Source: a virus. From it: a stretch of DNA of 43,562 bases. The notes under the pieces are model-generated. The model was given only the letters and a program-made list of their open reading frames with translations, was not told the DNA's origin and searched no databases. Below, one piece after another: positions 2,837 to 39,861 of this stretch; the first letter of the stretch is position 1, and the number at the start of each line of letters is the position of its first letter. The stretch spans positions 1-43,562 of IMG/VR virus record IMGVR_UViG_3300028840_000745. The stretch is one strand, 5' to 3'. The translations under genes were made by a program, and so were the position numbers.

Positions 2837-2865
2837 TTGACATCTAATGAATTTTTTGGTATAAT
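2837..2865 (+). promoter_or_regulatory. Sigma70 promoter P1 (early)
   Basis: TTGACA (2837-2842), a 17-bp spacer, and TATAAT (2860-2865) are perfect consensus boxes. TGG just upstream of the -10 gives an extended -10. It would start transcription near 2872, ahead of the gene at 2909, and is a near twin of the promoter at 5217. Confidence 0.85.
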
Positions 2866-2908: not shown

Positions 2909-3172
2909 ATGACTGAAGAAGATTTAAAATCTAATCCACATTGCGAAGAATGTGGAGCACTTCCGGAAACCCGGCCTGAAATCGGCCCACCTAAGCCAGT
3001 CTACTTCGGCAAAAACAAAGGTAGGTTCTTCTACCTAAGACCATTCAGTTGGAAGAAACTCTGCTCTTGGCATCGGCGAGAAGAAGAACGTATCAAACGT
3101 GAAGAAGCCGAGAGTAAGAAGAAAGGAAGAATCAAATTAGATAGACTCCCAGATGTAAGGTGGGAGCTATAA
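2909..3172 (+). CDS. Small zinc-finger-like protein, 87 aa
   Basis: The start at 2909 has AAAGGAGAAAACGA and lies downstream of P1; an upstream in-frame start would read across that promoter and is rejected. The protein has CEEC near residue 11 and CSWH near residue 58, separated by a basic aromatic region, followed by a Lys/Arg/Glu-rich helix. This C-x2-C...C-x2-H layout suits a treble-clef or HNH-like zinc site, but no HNH catalytic residues are clear. It is transcribed by a host promoter, so it is an early gene. Confidence 0.65.
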   Translation: MTEEDLKSNPHCEECGALPETRPEIGPPKPVYFGKNKGRFFYLRPFSWKKLCSWHRREEERIKREEAESKKKGRIKLDRLPDVRWEL

Positions 3173-3175
3173 GAC

Positions 3176-3360
3176 TTAAGCCCTCAATGATTGAGAAAAC
3201 TAATGATACTTGAAGTCAAAACTTACAAAGTCGCAGTTGTCAGCTGCGCTATTTGTTGCAAGGCAAATACTTTAACCGGATGAATACTGACTTCACAGGG
3301 TTCTGCGGGGTTCCCTGCCGCTGTATCGTTGGTCTGTCATGTAGCGCATTGAGGGCTTAA
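3176..3360 (+). ncRNA. Candidate structured RNA, about 185 nt
   Basis: A 206-base gap between genes folds into a compact multi-helix element. P1 is a perfect 14-bp closing stem (3176-3189 with 3347-3360). P2 is 8 bp (3211-3218 with 3288-3295). Inside P2 is a three-way junction: AAAGT/ACTTT (3227-3231, 3269-3273) enclosing CGCAG/CTGCG (3232-3236, 3244-3248) and ATTTG/CAAAT (3251-3255, 3264-3268). P3 is CAGGG/CCCTG (3296-3300, 3313-3317). P4 is CGCTGTAT/ATGTAGCG (3319-3326, 3339-3346, two G-U pairs). P2, P3, P4 and P1 abut with at most one free base, so they could stack coaxially. AACC (3274-3277) may also pair with GGTT (3309-3312). I do not recognise the class; it could be a free small RNA or a cis element for the gene at 3379. 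Confidence 0.6.
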
Positions 3361-3378
3361 CAAAAGAAAGGAGAAAGC

Positions 3379-3840
3379 ATGATCTTATTAAGTAGCCCGA
3401 ACCTTCGGGAGAGACTTGGAAAAGAATGGAAAAAGTACAAGAGGATGAAAGAGTTTCATCTGTCCGCGCAAAAACAGATTGACTTTGTTCTTGAGAACAA
3501 GTGGCTAAACCGCCAGCCGTGTAAAATCTGGTATCACACCGATTCCCTCTTCGGGAATAAGCTTATCTTCAACGTCCAGAACGTAGATATCGAGAAATTT
3601 ATCGAAAACGTTCTCGGCCCATTTCACCTTAAGTTTGATAAACTTTGGCATTTAGAGCTCAGTGGTGATGAGGAAGAACCAGTGTTCGAGTTTTCTGACA
3701 ACTCATCTCCTCTCTGGGCAAAATCAGTATTCTTTGTCAAAGAAGGTGAGTTTAGACAATGTACAGTCGTCAAGGAGTTCTCGCACGTTAGAGAAGGGAA
3801 CCCAGAACCAGTCTACAGACTAAGATTGGTCTGCGAATAG
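3379..3840 (+). CDS. Hypothetical protein, 153 aa
   Basis: The start follows AAAGGAGAAAGC, 18 bases after the structured RNA closes, so translation could depend on that fold. The protein begins with a basic helical segment and continues as an alternating hydrophobic/charged pattern suggesting beta strands (residues 50-150). No Cys cluster, membrane segment or catalytic motif is seen. Its stop codon lies in a small hairpin (TAGGGA...TCCCTA, 3838-3854). Confidence 0.65.
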   Translation: MILLSSPNLRERLGKEWKKYKRMKEFHLSAQKQIDFVLENKWLNRQPCKIWYHTDSLFGNKLIFNVQNVDIEKFIENVLGPFHLKFDKLWHLELSGDEEEPVFEFSDNSSPLWAKSVFFVKEGEFRQCTVVKEFSHVREGNPEPVYRLRLVCE

Positions 3841-5199: not shown

Positions 5200-5216
5200 C
5201 ATATACCAAAGACTAC

Positions 5217-5245
5217 TTGACAACTGGCCATTTTTTTGGTATAAT
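5217..5245 (+). promoter_or_regulatory. Sigma70 promoter P2, flanked by inverted repeat
   Basis: TTGACA (5217-5222), a 17-bp spacer and TATAAT (5240-5245) match consensus, with TGG ahead of the -10 as in P1. TATACCAAA (5202-5210) and TTTGGTATA (5235-5243) form a 9-bp inverted repeat that brackets the -35 and overlaps the -10, so a regulator could block this promoter. It drives the leader peptide and the gene at 5385. Confidence 0.85.
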
Positions 5246-5288
5246 GGTTTTTGTCACTGGGAGTCTTAAACTGGTAAAGGAAGGAGTG

Positions 5289-5327
5289 ATGCTTAAGGGA
5301 CAACGTCCCACTTTGTTTAATTATTAA
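5289..5327 (+). CDS. Candidate leader peptide, 12 aa
   Basis: AAAGGAAGGAGTG precedes an ATG that opens a 12-codon frame, MLKGQRPTLFNY, about 40 bases after P2. It contains a small hairpin (GGGAC/GTCCC, 5297-5309) and its stop codon lies inside palindrome site 2. The ribosome site is as strong as those of real genes, so it may be translated and act as a leader for the gene at 5385. Confidence 0.4.
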   Translation: MLKGQRPTLFNY

Positions 5328-5333
5328 CCATAG
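5311..5333 (+). promoter_or_regulatory. 23-bp palindrome, site 2
   Basis: The right half (ATTAACCATAG) is perfect; the left half reads CTTTGTTTAAT. Unlike most copies it is 51 bases from the next main start codon (5385), but it overlaps the stop of the 12-codon leader. Confidence 0.7.
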
Positions 5334-5384
5334 GACTCAAATTAACTAGAACTTAATCAATCTAATGAATGAAAGGAGATTCAA

Positions 5385-5720
5385 ATGGGAACACCGATCG
5401 AAGTAAAAGCAAGTAATCCGAAAACAGACCAAGAATGTGCAGTAATGTACGATTTCGGCGACACCATCGAGGAAGCCGTCGATAATTTCACCGGAGACGT
5501 GGTTCACTCCCTTTACGTAGCGCAGGCAAAAGTTGTCCTGCAAGCGGCCCTACGCCGTTGCATGGAACAGGGGCGTGATCCCGGAGACTTCGCCGCAAGT
5601 TGGAAACCCGGAGTAAAGGCTCCTTCCATCGCCGCAGATCCTATTGCTGCTGCGAAGGCCGCGTTTGCGAAGATGTCCGACGAAGACAAGGCTGCATTCC
5701 TTCAATCTCTGAAGGGATAG
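5385..5720 (+). CDS. Conserved-type phage protein, 111 aa
   Basis: The start follows AAAGGAGATTCAA. The N-terminal 60 residues form an alpha/beta segment (IEVKASNP..., DFGDTIEEAVDNF, then a long helix). A proline-containing linker (WKPGVKAPS) leads to a short alanine-rich helical tail. It has more G+C than its neighbours, and sits as the first main gene behind P2, followed by a clear terminator, so it is a monocistronic, strongly expressed early gene. I recall similar small proteins in phages but know no function. Confidence 0.7.
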   Translation: MGTPIEVKASNPKTDQECAVMYDFGDTIEEAVDNFTGDVVHSLYVAQAKVVLQAALRRCMEQGRDPGDFAASWKPGVKAPSIAADPIAAAKAAFAKMSDEDKAAFLQSLKG

Positions 5721-5740
5721 AGATTCGAACTCAGGCCACT

Positions 5741-5769
5741 GAGAGGGGGACTATGTCCCCTTCTCTTTT
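5741..5769 (+). terminator. Intrinsic terminator
   Basis: GGGGAC (5746-5751) pairs with GTCCCC (5755-5760) around a TAT loop, with outer GAGA/CTCT pairing possible, followed by TTCTCTTTTA. It lies just after the gene at 5385-5720. Confidence 0.65.
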
Positions 5770-10469: not shown

Positions 10470-10473
10470 CCAA

Positions 10474-10496
10474 CTCTGGTTAATTTTTAACCATAG
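10474..10496 (+). promoter_or_regulatory. 23-bp palindrome, site 3
   Basis: CTCTGGTTAAT and the perfect right half TTTAACCATAG differ from ideal at two positions. It lies just after the SSB-like gene and eight bases before the hairpin element at 10504. Confidence 0.7.
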
Positions 10497-10503
10497 GTAA
10501 ACT

Positions 10504-10566
10504 AAGCCCTCCGTTGAGACAGGTTTTTACACCACCTTTTTCCTGTCCCCCACCTTCGGAGGGCTT
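10504..10566 (+). promoter_or_regulatory. Structured leader element
   Basis: AAGCCCTCCG (10504-10513) pairs perfectly with CGGAGGGCTT (10557-10566); inside, GACAGG (10518-10523) pairs with CCTGTC (10542-10547) around a pyrimidine-rich 18-nt loop. No T run follows, so it is not a plain terminator. It ends a few bases before the AAAGGAG ribosome site of the gene at 10583. The outer stem shares AAGCCCTC/GAGGGCTT with the RNA at 3176-3360. Confidence 0.55.
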
Positions 10567-10819: not shown

Positions 10820-11055
10820 TGGCTCAAATCGACGATTTGAACGTATCCATTTCTAGCATGAACCCGGAGGAAGCTTTCGCGTTGGTTAAAAGCCTACGTG
10901 AGTCGCGAAGGATAAAGAAGAAAGTTACGAAGCCCAGAGGATCAACCTCCTCAGGAGCTTCGAGAGCTAAGCCGAAAGACCCACTGGCTAACTTAACCCA
11001 AGAGCAGAAAGCTGTTCTTATAACCATGCTAGAAAAGGAGTTAAACGGAAAATGA
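10819..11055 (+). CDS. Small basic protein, 78 aa
   Basis: The start lies at the previous stop (TAATG) behind AAGGAGAGATA. A first helical segment (NPEEAFALVKSLRESRRIKKK) is joined by a Ser/Lys/Pro-rich linker to a second helix (LTQEQKAVLITMLEKEL). Its four-base overlap with the ParB-methyltransferase gene and constant coupling suggest a partner or adaptor, but no function is known to me. Confidence 0.65.
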   Translation: MAQIDDLNVSISSMNPEEAFALVKSLRESRRIKKKVTKPRGSTSSGASRAKPKDPLANLTQEQKAVLITMLEKELNGK

Positions 11056-12440
11056 TTAAGGAAGGAACATTGGCTGTAATTCCACTGGGAGATATAGATT
11101 ATGGAGATCGGGGACGTCAAGATTACAAAGACATTGCGGCACTTGCCACCTCTATCAGAGAACATGGACTCGTACATCCGATCGCAATTATGCCGCATCC
11201 AGAAGCAAATGGAAAATACCTGTTACTTGCCGGAGGGCGTCGCCTACGGGCCTGCGAGCACCTTAACAGCGAGAGAATTGAGTGTAAGATTTTCCCAGGT
11301 AGGTTATCGGAGCTTGAAATTAGATCCATTGAGTTACTGGAGAACATTCAACGAGAGGATCTCGAATACCACGAGAAAGTTCGGATGGCCAAGAAGATAC
11401 GAGATCTTATGGTCGAAATACATGGTCGTAAGAAGTCCACATCACCTGACGCGCCTGGCGTTAGCGACCGTGACGTAGCTAAGATGATTGGCATTACTCA
11501 TGGCAAACTGTCACAAGATATCGGTCTTGCGGAGACCATGGAAAAGTTTCCAGATGTTCCCTGGGAACAGTGTAAGAACAAGGCCGAAGCCATGAAGCTT
11601 AAGGAAAACATCAGTCGGGTATTTATCCGACAAGAAGCTGCTAAACAGTTTGAAGAGGCTATCAGAGAAGACAATGGAGCACTGACGTTGAGAGATGCTC
11701 AGAGACAGAAGCTTGCCTCGTTTTACCTTGTCGGCGATTTCTTCGAGATGGTTAAGAAAGTCCCCTCCGAACTATTTAATCTCGTTGAGGTTGACCCTCC
11801 CTATTCCATCGATCTTGGAAAGATCAAGAAGAAAACGGGTTTTGGTAACTACAGTTACAGTGAAAAGGGTTATAACGAGATCCTCAAAGAGGATTATCCG
11901 AAGTTTATCTTCGAAACCCTTTCAGAGTGTTATCGTGTGATGAAGAAAGATTCCTGGCTGATCTTCTGGTTTTCGCCAGACCCGTGGTATCCCTTCATCC
12001 TTGAAGCTATGCGGAAGATCGGCTTCAACGTTCGTGGTCTGCCATGTGTTTGGGCCAAGGGAGAAGCGGAAGAGGGTGAGCTCGTAGAAACCACAAGCGG
12101 TCAGACCAACACGCCGATTCGGCACCTGGCAAGCTCCGTAGAGTTTTTCTTCTATGCTAAGAAAGGAGACCCTAAACTCAACAAGATGGGTCGGACAAAC
12201 CATTTCGGTTTCAAGCCCGTCCCACCAAGTAAGAAGATCCACCCGACAGAAAGGCCACTCGAGCTAATGGACGAGATCCTGACGACCTTCGTCATGGAAG
12301 GCTCACGGGTGTTAGTACCATTCGCAGGAAGTGGTAATACGTTAATCTCAGCTTATCGGAATAAGATGCTTCCGATAGGTTATGATCTCGGTGAAATCCA
12401 CCGGGAAGGATTCCTAACAAGGATTAAGGAGGTAATATGA
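11052..12440 (+). CDS. ParB-like/DNA methyltransferase fusion
   Basis: Residues 1-110 are a ParB/Srx-type domain, with AGGRRLRAC (60-68) and ENIQREDL (about 97-104); a helical HTH-like region follows (VAKMIGITHGKLSQDIGLAE). The C-terminal part is an amino-methyltransferase with DPPY (248-251) ahead of the SAM-binding FAGSGNT (424-430), the beta-class order for N6-adenine or N4-cytosine methylation. It probably methylates phage DNA to resist host restriction, the ParB part giving DNA or CTP binding. No restriction nuclease is adjacent. The length is normal for this phage fusion. Confidence 0.9.
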   Translation: MIKEGTLAVIPLGDIDYGDRGRQDYKDIAALATSIREHGLVHPIAIMPHPEANGKYLLLAGGRRLRACEHLNSERIECKIFPGRLSELEIRSIELLENIQREDLEYHEKVRMAKKIRDLMVEIHGRKKSTSPDAPGVSDRDVAKMIGITHGKLSQDIGLAETMEKFPDVPWEQCKNKAEAMKLKENISRVFIRQEAAKQFEEAIREDNGALTLRDAQRQKLASFYLVGDFFEMVKKVPSELFNLVEVDPPYSIDLGKIKKKTGFGNYSYSEKGYNEILKEDYPKFIFETLSECYRVMKKDSWLIFWFSPDPWYPFILEAMRKIGFNVRGLPCVWAKGEAEEGELVETTSGQTNTPIRHLASSVEFFFYAKKGDPKLNKMGRTNHFGFKPVPPSKKIHPTERPLELMDEILTTFVMEGSRVLVPFAGSGNTLISAYRNKMLPIGYDLGEIHREGFLTRIKEVI

Positions 12441-18109: not shown

Positions 18110-18132
18110 CTATGGTTAATAATTAACCAAAG
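18110..18132 (+). promoter_or_regulatory. 23-bp palindrome, site 4
   Basis: CTATGGTTAAT is perfect; the right half ATTAACCAAAG has one mismatch. It begins right after the helicase stop and ends 14 bases before the ATG at 18147, running into GGGAGGAAA, the ribosome site. Confidence 0.75.
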
Positions 18133-30921: not shown

Positions 30922-30944
30922 CTCTGTTTAAAAAATAACCATAG
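30922..30944 (-). promoter_or_regulatory. 23-bp palindrome, site 6
   Basis: On the - strand it reads CTATGGTTATT, one base, then TTTAAACAGAG. It ends eight bases before the adaptor start (30913), and its final AGAGG is the ribosome site. It lies within the 110-base gap after the capsid gene, where transcription could be re-set. Confidence 0.7.
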
Positions 30945-39838: not shown

Positions 39839-39861
39839 CTCTGTTTAATAATTAACCATAG
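39839..39861 (-). promoter_or_regulatory. 23-bp palindrome, site 7
   Basis: On the - strand CTATGGTTAAT is perfect, then ATTAAACAGAG with two mismatches. It fills the 33-base gap between holin and TerL, and its end AGAGGG is the TerL ribosome site. Confidence 0.75.

Follow-up and report, generated by a model that had tools for sequence, protein, structure and literature searches.

The window, meaning the whole stretch of DNA analysed, is an entire viral record of 43,562 bp. Its early genes are oriented rightward and occupy 151 to about 18,500; its late genes point leftward. Both ends look cut: the right end probably falls within a gene, and the left end (1-110) looks like the 3' half of a long rod-like palindrome, which may be the reason that the contig breaks there. 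Within the early region, a noncoding gap at 3173-3378 separates ORF 2909-3172 from ORF 3379-3840 and contains an element of 185 bases, 3176-3360. The features on which our analysis draws are these:

2837-2865, plus strand: sigma70-type promoter of this early operon segment, TTGACA-17-TATAAT with extended -10, 12/12 match
2909-3172, plus strand: upstream gene, 87 aa, an orphan, its stop codon 3 nt ahead of P1
3176-3189, plus strand: 5' arm of P1, TTAAGCCCTCAATG, perfect complement of 3347-3360
3199-3209, plus strand: 5' arm of P2, pairing with 3323-3333 over 11 bp (2 G-U); mean pair probability 0.99
3211-3218, plus strand: 5' arm of P3, TGAAGTCA, pairing with 3288-3295 over 8 bp; mean pair probability 0.78
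3232-3248, plus strand: hairpin 1, CGCAGTT GTC AGCTGCG; mean pair probability 0.92
3251-3268, plus strand: hairpin 2, ATTTGTT GCAA GGCAAAT, with a GNRA-type loop; mean pair probability 0.78
3288-3295, plus strand: 3' arm of P3, TGACTTCA, pairing with 3211-3218
3296-3317, plus strand: P4 hairpin, CAGGG/CCCTG; mean pair probability 0.75
3323-3333, plus strand: 3' arm of P2, pairing with 3199-3209
3347-3360, plus strand: 3' arm of P1, CATTGAGGGCTTAA, perfect complement of 3176-3189, ending 18 nt ahead of the ATG of ORF 3379
3367-3373, plus strand: ribosome-binding site AAAGGAG of ORF 3379, mostly unpaired in the predicted fold
3379-3840, plus strand: downstream gene, 153 aa, with homologs in related loci L103, L130, L133 and L134 that lack the element
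10504-10566, plus strand: a further intercistronic element closed by a stem, AAGCCCTCCG...CGGAGGGCTT, ending 16 nt ahead of an ATG

The perfect 14-bp closing stem proposed by the sequence-only reading is indeed present, exactly at 3176-3189/3347-3360, and spans the noncoding gap. Inverted repeats of 14 bp are expected 7e-5 times in the gap and 0.047 times across the window at spans up to 350, and the longest in 60 shuffled gaps was 9 bp; P1 is thus far beyond chance. In the fold prediction, 13 of its 14 pairs have probabilities of 0.94-1.0 in isolation and of at least 0.94 in the mRNA context. The stem begins 3 nt past the stop of ORF 2909, and its 3' end lies 6 nt ahead of the Shine-Dalgarno sequence of ORF 3379, a region that is predicted to stay open (mean unpaired probability of 0.82 over 3367-3381). 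Scanning of the gap revealed neither a promoter of its own nor a U-tract past the stem. P1 closes a loop of 157 nt and is followed by CAAAAG, and so departs from the short-loop stem with U-tract of an intrinsic terminator.

The strong sigma70 promoter said to lie upstream does have perfect -35 and -10 boxes, but it precedes ORF 2909 and not the element directly; the gap is therefore most simply placed within a polycistronic transcript. Two strong extended promoters with a perfect TTGACA-17-TATAAT occur in the window as a 46-nt repeat of 76% identity (2824-2869 and 5204-5249). Other noncoding features were also recorded. A 17-bp terminator-like hairpin (1510-1550) follows ORF 1206-1502, with a dyad repeat directly next to it. 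The dyad CTATGGTTAATTNTTAACCATAG recurs at 1543-1567, 5307-5334, 10470-10497, 18110-18131, ~30922-30944 and ~39839-39861, in noncoding gaps of the early and late regions alike, and similar dyads occur in L041 (622, 3310), L058 and L083; the dyad has the look of an operator or of another protein site. Additionally, a single protein encoded at 11052-12440 fuses a ParB-like nuclease with a DNA methyltransferase. A structure model of the ORF 3379 protein (pLDDT 80) had no match in the PDB at E 0.001 or better and gave no RNA-binding clue. A reverse transcriptase match, which would point to a retron ncRNA, was absent from the ORFs neighboring the element in Pfam and PHROGs.

The element folds better than its shuffles, with z of -4.7 over 200 shuffles and -4.3 over 1000. 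The antisense strand reaches z of -3.0 to -3.4, and the sense strand is the more stable by 11.6 kcal/mol. P1 supplies 20.5 of the 64.2 kcal/mol of folding energy, and the interior without it falls to z -1.66, a stability equaled by 6% of dinucleotide shuffles. The excess stability is confined to P1, and the claim that the helices nest more tightly than chance would allow is not borne out by these figures. Of the seven helices proposed, six are predicted (P1, P2, P3, hairpins 1 and 2, and P4), whereas the seventh, at the inner junction and taken by us as AAAGT/ACTTT in our reading of the nested three-way junction, has a probability of about 0. Pair probabilities are good for P2, P3, both hairpins and P4, but a prediction is in itself no evidence of selection. 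The interior probably consists of lineage-specific sequence on which little constraint can be detected. A competing 5' hairpin, CTCAAT/ATTGAG, had been put forward as a switch that turns P1 off; with a loop of 1 nt, and a best real form of -1.6 against -21.4 kcal/mol for P1, it is ruled out on geometry and energy.

Homologs were sought in more than 100 related loci, gathered through searches with the ligase, the exonuclease and ORF 3379. A single-sequence covariance model of the element, run on some 1.7 Mb of DNA from related phages, recovered only the element itself, with other matches at chance level, and blastn, nhmmer and the phages and plasmids collections likewise gave only chance matches. 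A 20-nt match in Pseudoalteromonas phage RIO-1 was set aside, the gap in question folding unremarkably (z -1.12). Rfam 15 returned nothing at gathering score in the window, the best sub-threshold hit being snoR639 (E 3.4). The description of the element as an RNA of unknown class thus holds in the trivial sense that no Rfam family matches. In the relatives fetched, neither the model nor comparison of DNA turned up homologs with compensatory changes, the mark of a conserved structured ncRNA.

Judged by DNA polymerase, a Desulfofustis phage is the closest named genome, at 41%. In L041, whose exonuclease is 64% identical, homologs of ORF 2194 and ORF 4475 flank an interval of other genes from which the element is absent, and no equivalent was seen in the gaps of L058 (65%). 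Viral scans found no relatives of ORF 2194 or ORF 2909; tblastn gave weak homologs of ORF 2194 in L041 and L058. Upstream of the ORF 3379 homologs the element is also missing, by structure model as well, and L103, L130 and L134 have there a terminator-like hairpin, a tRNA or plain sequence; the tRNA gene, slightly upstream of the homolog in L130, lies at 5682-5741 (Rfam, 51.8 bits). As far as these sequences were sampled, the element is private to one phage; records very near the window may lie outside the sequences searched, and closer homologs may exist.

Within its own genome the element has a partial counterpart. The outer 8 bp of P1 (AAGCCCTC/GAGGGCTT) recur in the element at 10504-10566, again just before a Shine-Dalgarno sequence, and AAGCCCTC occurs 5 times against 1.64 expected, a count reached in 2 of 100 shuffles. 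Local alignment of the two elements gave a score reached by 14.5% of shuffles, which is not significant. Terminator-like stems sit at the same site as the second element in relatives, and the stem common to both elements may represent two independent GC-rich terminator-like stems.

Across the phage group, 1449 gene starts preceded by a Shine-Dalgarno sequence were surveyed for stems with a 3' arm ending 8-30 nt before the start codon. Stems of at least 11 bp numbered 14 against 1.33 expected, and those of at least 13 bp numbered 7 against 0. Furthermore, 182 kb of noncoding gaps contained 42 inverted repeats of at least 13 bp at spans of 50-350, against 2.4 expected, a total in which some rods are counted repeatedly. 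These stem-closed elements are mixed, comprising terminators with expanded loops, long rods and tRNA-like RNAs. The plus strand is the more stable in 21 of 42, so that with no preference for the sense strand DNA-level palindromes stay in contention at the level of the class; the strand comparison gave no sign of RNA-level selection. That all of them, the present element included, form one functional class, in which sequence is free and a stem is kept beside the next ribosome-binding site, seems improbable to us; if true, the class would be a phage-specific system of mRNA punctuation. The rods are imperfect palindromes of about 210-330 nt (z -7 to -13), mutually unrelated in sequence, and were found at L004 3607-3868, L005 3011-3335, L007 1442-1650, L010 4389-4705, L011 4185-4515, L012 1-287, L018 4487-4710, L021 3991-4312, L024 406-720 and L027 4974-5233. 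Most lie upstream of the ligase gene, at a distance of 4-7 kb, and in several an A-rich strand faces a pyrimidine-rich part.

Our best reading is of a local mRNA punctuation structure rather than of a proven new RNA class. From the stem, its place and its recurrence, which are observed, we infer the punctuation step itself, and the placement of the stem beside a Shine-Dalgarno sequence predicted to stay open favors an action in cis. We tentatively regard the element as an intercistronic, cis-acting punctuation structure in an early polycistronic mRNA, a reading that we hold at somewhat less than even. On transcription, P1 would loop out the 157-nt interior and insulate the downstream ribosome-binding site. 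The P1 duplex might then punctuate the message as a putative RNase III-type processing site, as a protector of 5' or 3' ends, or as both, and would in this way uncouple the two cistrons. The predicted duplex at such a putative RNase III site comprises the 14 bp of P1 and the 11 bp of P2. The punctuation reading draws on a stem beyond chance with high predicted pair probabilities, on a ribosome-binding site predicted to be mostly unpaired, on the missing promoter and U-tract, on the second element and on the enrichment in the group. Against it stand the lack of a homolog or of covariation in the sampled relatives, the ORF 3379 homologs that manage without the element, a class with no preferred sense strand, and the possibly independent origin of the stem in the second element. 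Of what the sequence-only reading proposed, a cis element in the early mRNA is the likeliest part.

The main rival to punctuation, itself unlikely, is a MITE-like insertion just past the stop of ORF 2909, with a TTAA target duplication and 10-bp terminal inverted repeats GCCCTCAATG, whose RNA fold would be a by-product of these repeats, as with Correia/NEMIS elements. An insertion would explain both P1 and an unconstrained interior, with excess stability in P1 only; the 14-bp perfect repeat supplies the terminal inverted repeats of a MITE, the gap remaining after removal of one TTAA copy and 181 bp would be short and ordinary for a phage, and the size, terminal repeats and intergenic location suit bacterial MITEs (PMC2229807, PMC10969869). 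The TTAA at both ends also belongs to the stem, and the element at 10504-10566 has no such ends. Moreover, the genome holds one copy where a MITE should have several, or relatives elsewhere. The pattern GCCCTCAATG-N145..175-CATTGAGGGC matched one viral and 13 scattered genome sequences, which is near the estimated chance, and the two inspected look coding. Transcripts of bacterial MITEs fold and are open to cleavage by RNase III (PMC2229807; PMC10969869), and since an inserted unit with inverted repeats can turn into an RNase III site, as in NEMIS, insertion and punctuation need not be mutually exclusive (PMC2229807, PMC10969869).

A structured phage RNA that is free and acts in trans, or a new class of ligand-sensing riboswitch, would fit the compact predicted fold, the 11.6 kcal/mol advantage of the sense strand and the GNRA-type loop of hairpin 2; we consider it quite improbable given an interior indistinguishable from shuffles, no homologs, no promoter or terminator of its own, and its absence from the syntenic interval of L041 and, as far as seen, from the gaps of L058. 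Descent from the giant tRNA-Leu-like RNAs of related phages would account for the common size range (98-211 nt), the intercistronic place and the extended closing stem, and the element at 10504-10566 lies at a gap where L013, L027, L041 and L111 hold such RNAs. The element nevertheless has no D-arm signature and no T-arm signature of the GGTTCRANNCC kind, the window yielded no tRNA and no GGTTCRANTCC T-arm, and the best alignment of the element to the 11 RNAs had a score that 90% of shuffles reach, the members scoring 29-177 among themselves. With an alignment at chance level, a remnant of this kind is unsupported and very unlikely. Least probable is a coding gap, in which overlapping 26-aa ORFs (3203-3283 and 3280-3360) would be coupled through ATGA. 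The codon score of the first exceeds 98% of out-of-frame segments, yet set against real gene segments both score in the bottom 4-10%; a Shine-Dalgarno sequence, which nearly all 27 listed genes have, is missing from both, and neither matches a phage protein.

The tRNA-Leu-like RNAs were found in 11 relatives as intercistronic, sense-strand RNAs of 98-211 nt: L011 8284-8449, L013 4557-4708, L017 7360-7570, L027 13967-14064, L041 10832-11011, L074 2414-2602, L083 8155-8329, L085 3744-3864, L100 3426-3634, L104 12409-12608 and L111 7905-8050. Each has an intact 7-bp acceptor stem, varying in sequence with pairing kept, a Leu-type D-arm (TGGCGGAATTGG..GGTAGACGC) and a T-arm (GCAGGTTCGAATCCTGC). 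The inserts consist of a stem-closed D-loop helix of the GGCAAG/CTTGCC type, of a 36-163-nt anticodon/variable region, or of both. Among those scanned, Rfam scored only that of L011; ARAGORN gave one hit on a reversed-sequence control, and two of the 11 had no match in the phages collection. The same detection steps applied to our element gave nothing tRNA-like. With their large inserts, these RNAs may matter more than the element itself and merit their own study.

Taken alone, the element is an intercistronic structure private to a single uncultured phage; should the class reading hold, it would show a way in which some phages punctuate their long early mRNAs with no need of conserved sequence. 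Correia/NEMIS and other MITEs resemble it as intergenic units of 100-200 bp with terminal inverted repeats and a folding transcript (PMC2229807, PMC10969869), whereas the element is single copy and no family was found. Intrinsic terminators have a comparable GC-rich stem, AAGCCCTC/GAGGGCTT in this case, as do the second element and the terminator-like stems of relatives, but the element has a 157-nt loop and no U-tract. The giant tRNA-Leu-like RNAs are similar in size and in their intercistronic place before a Shine-Dalgarno sequence, and differ in their tRNA arms. Phage early mRNAs, as in phage T7, contain intercistronic processing hairpins of the RNase III type. These have a small loop, unlike P1 with its 157 enclosed nucleotides, and cleavage at the element is putative; what the two have in common is a double-stranded stem placed between cistrons of an early polycistronic mRNA.
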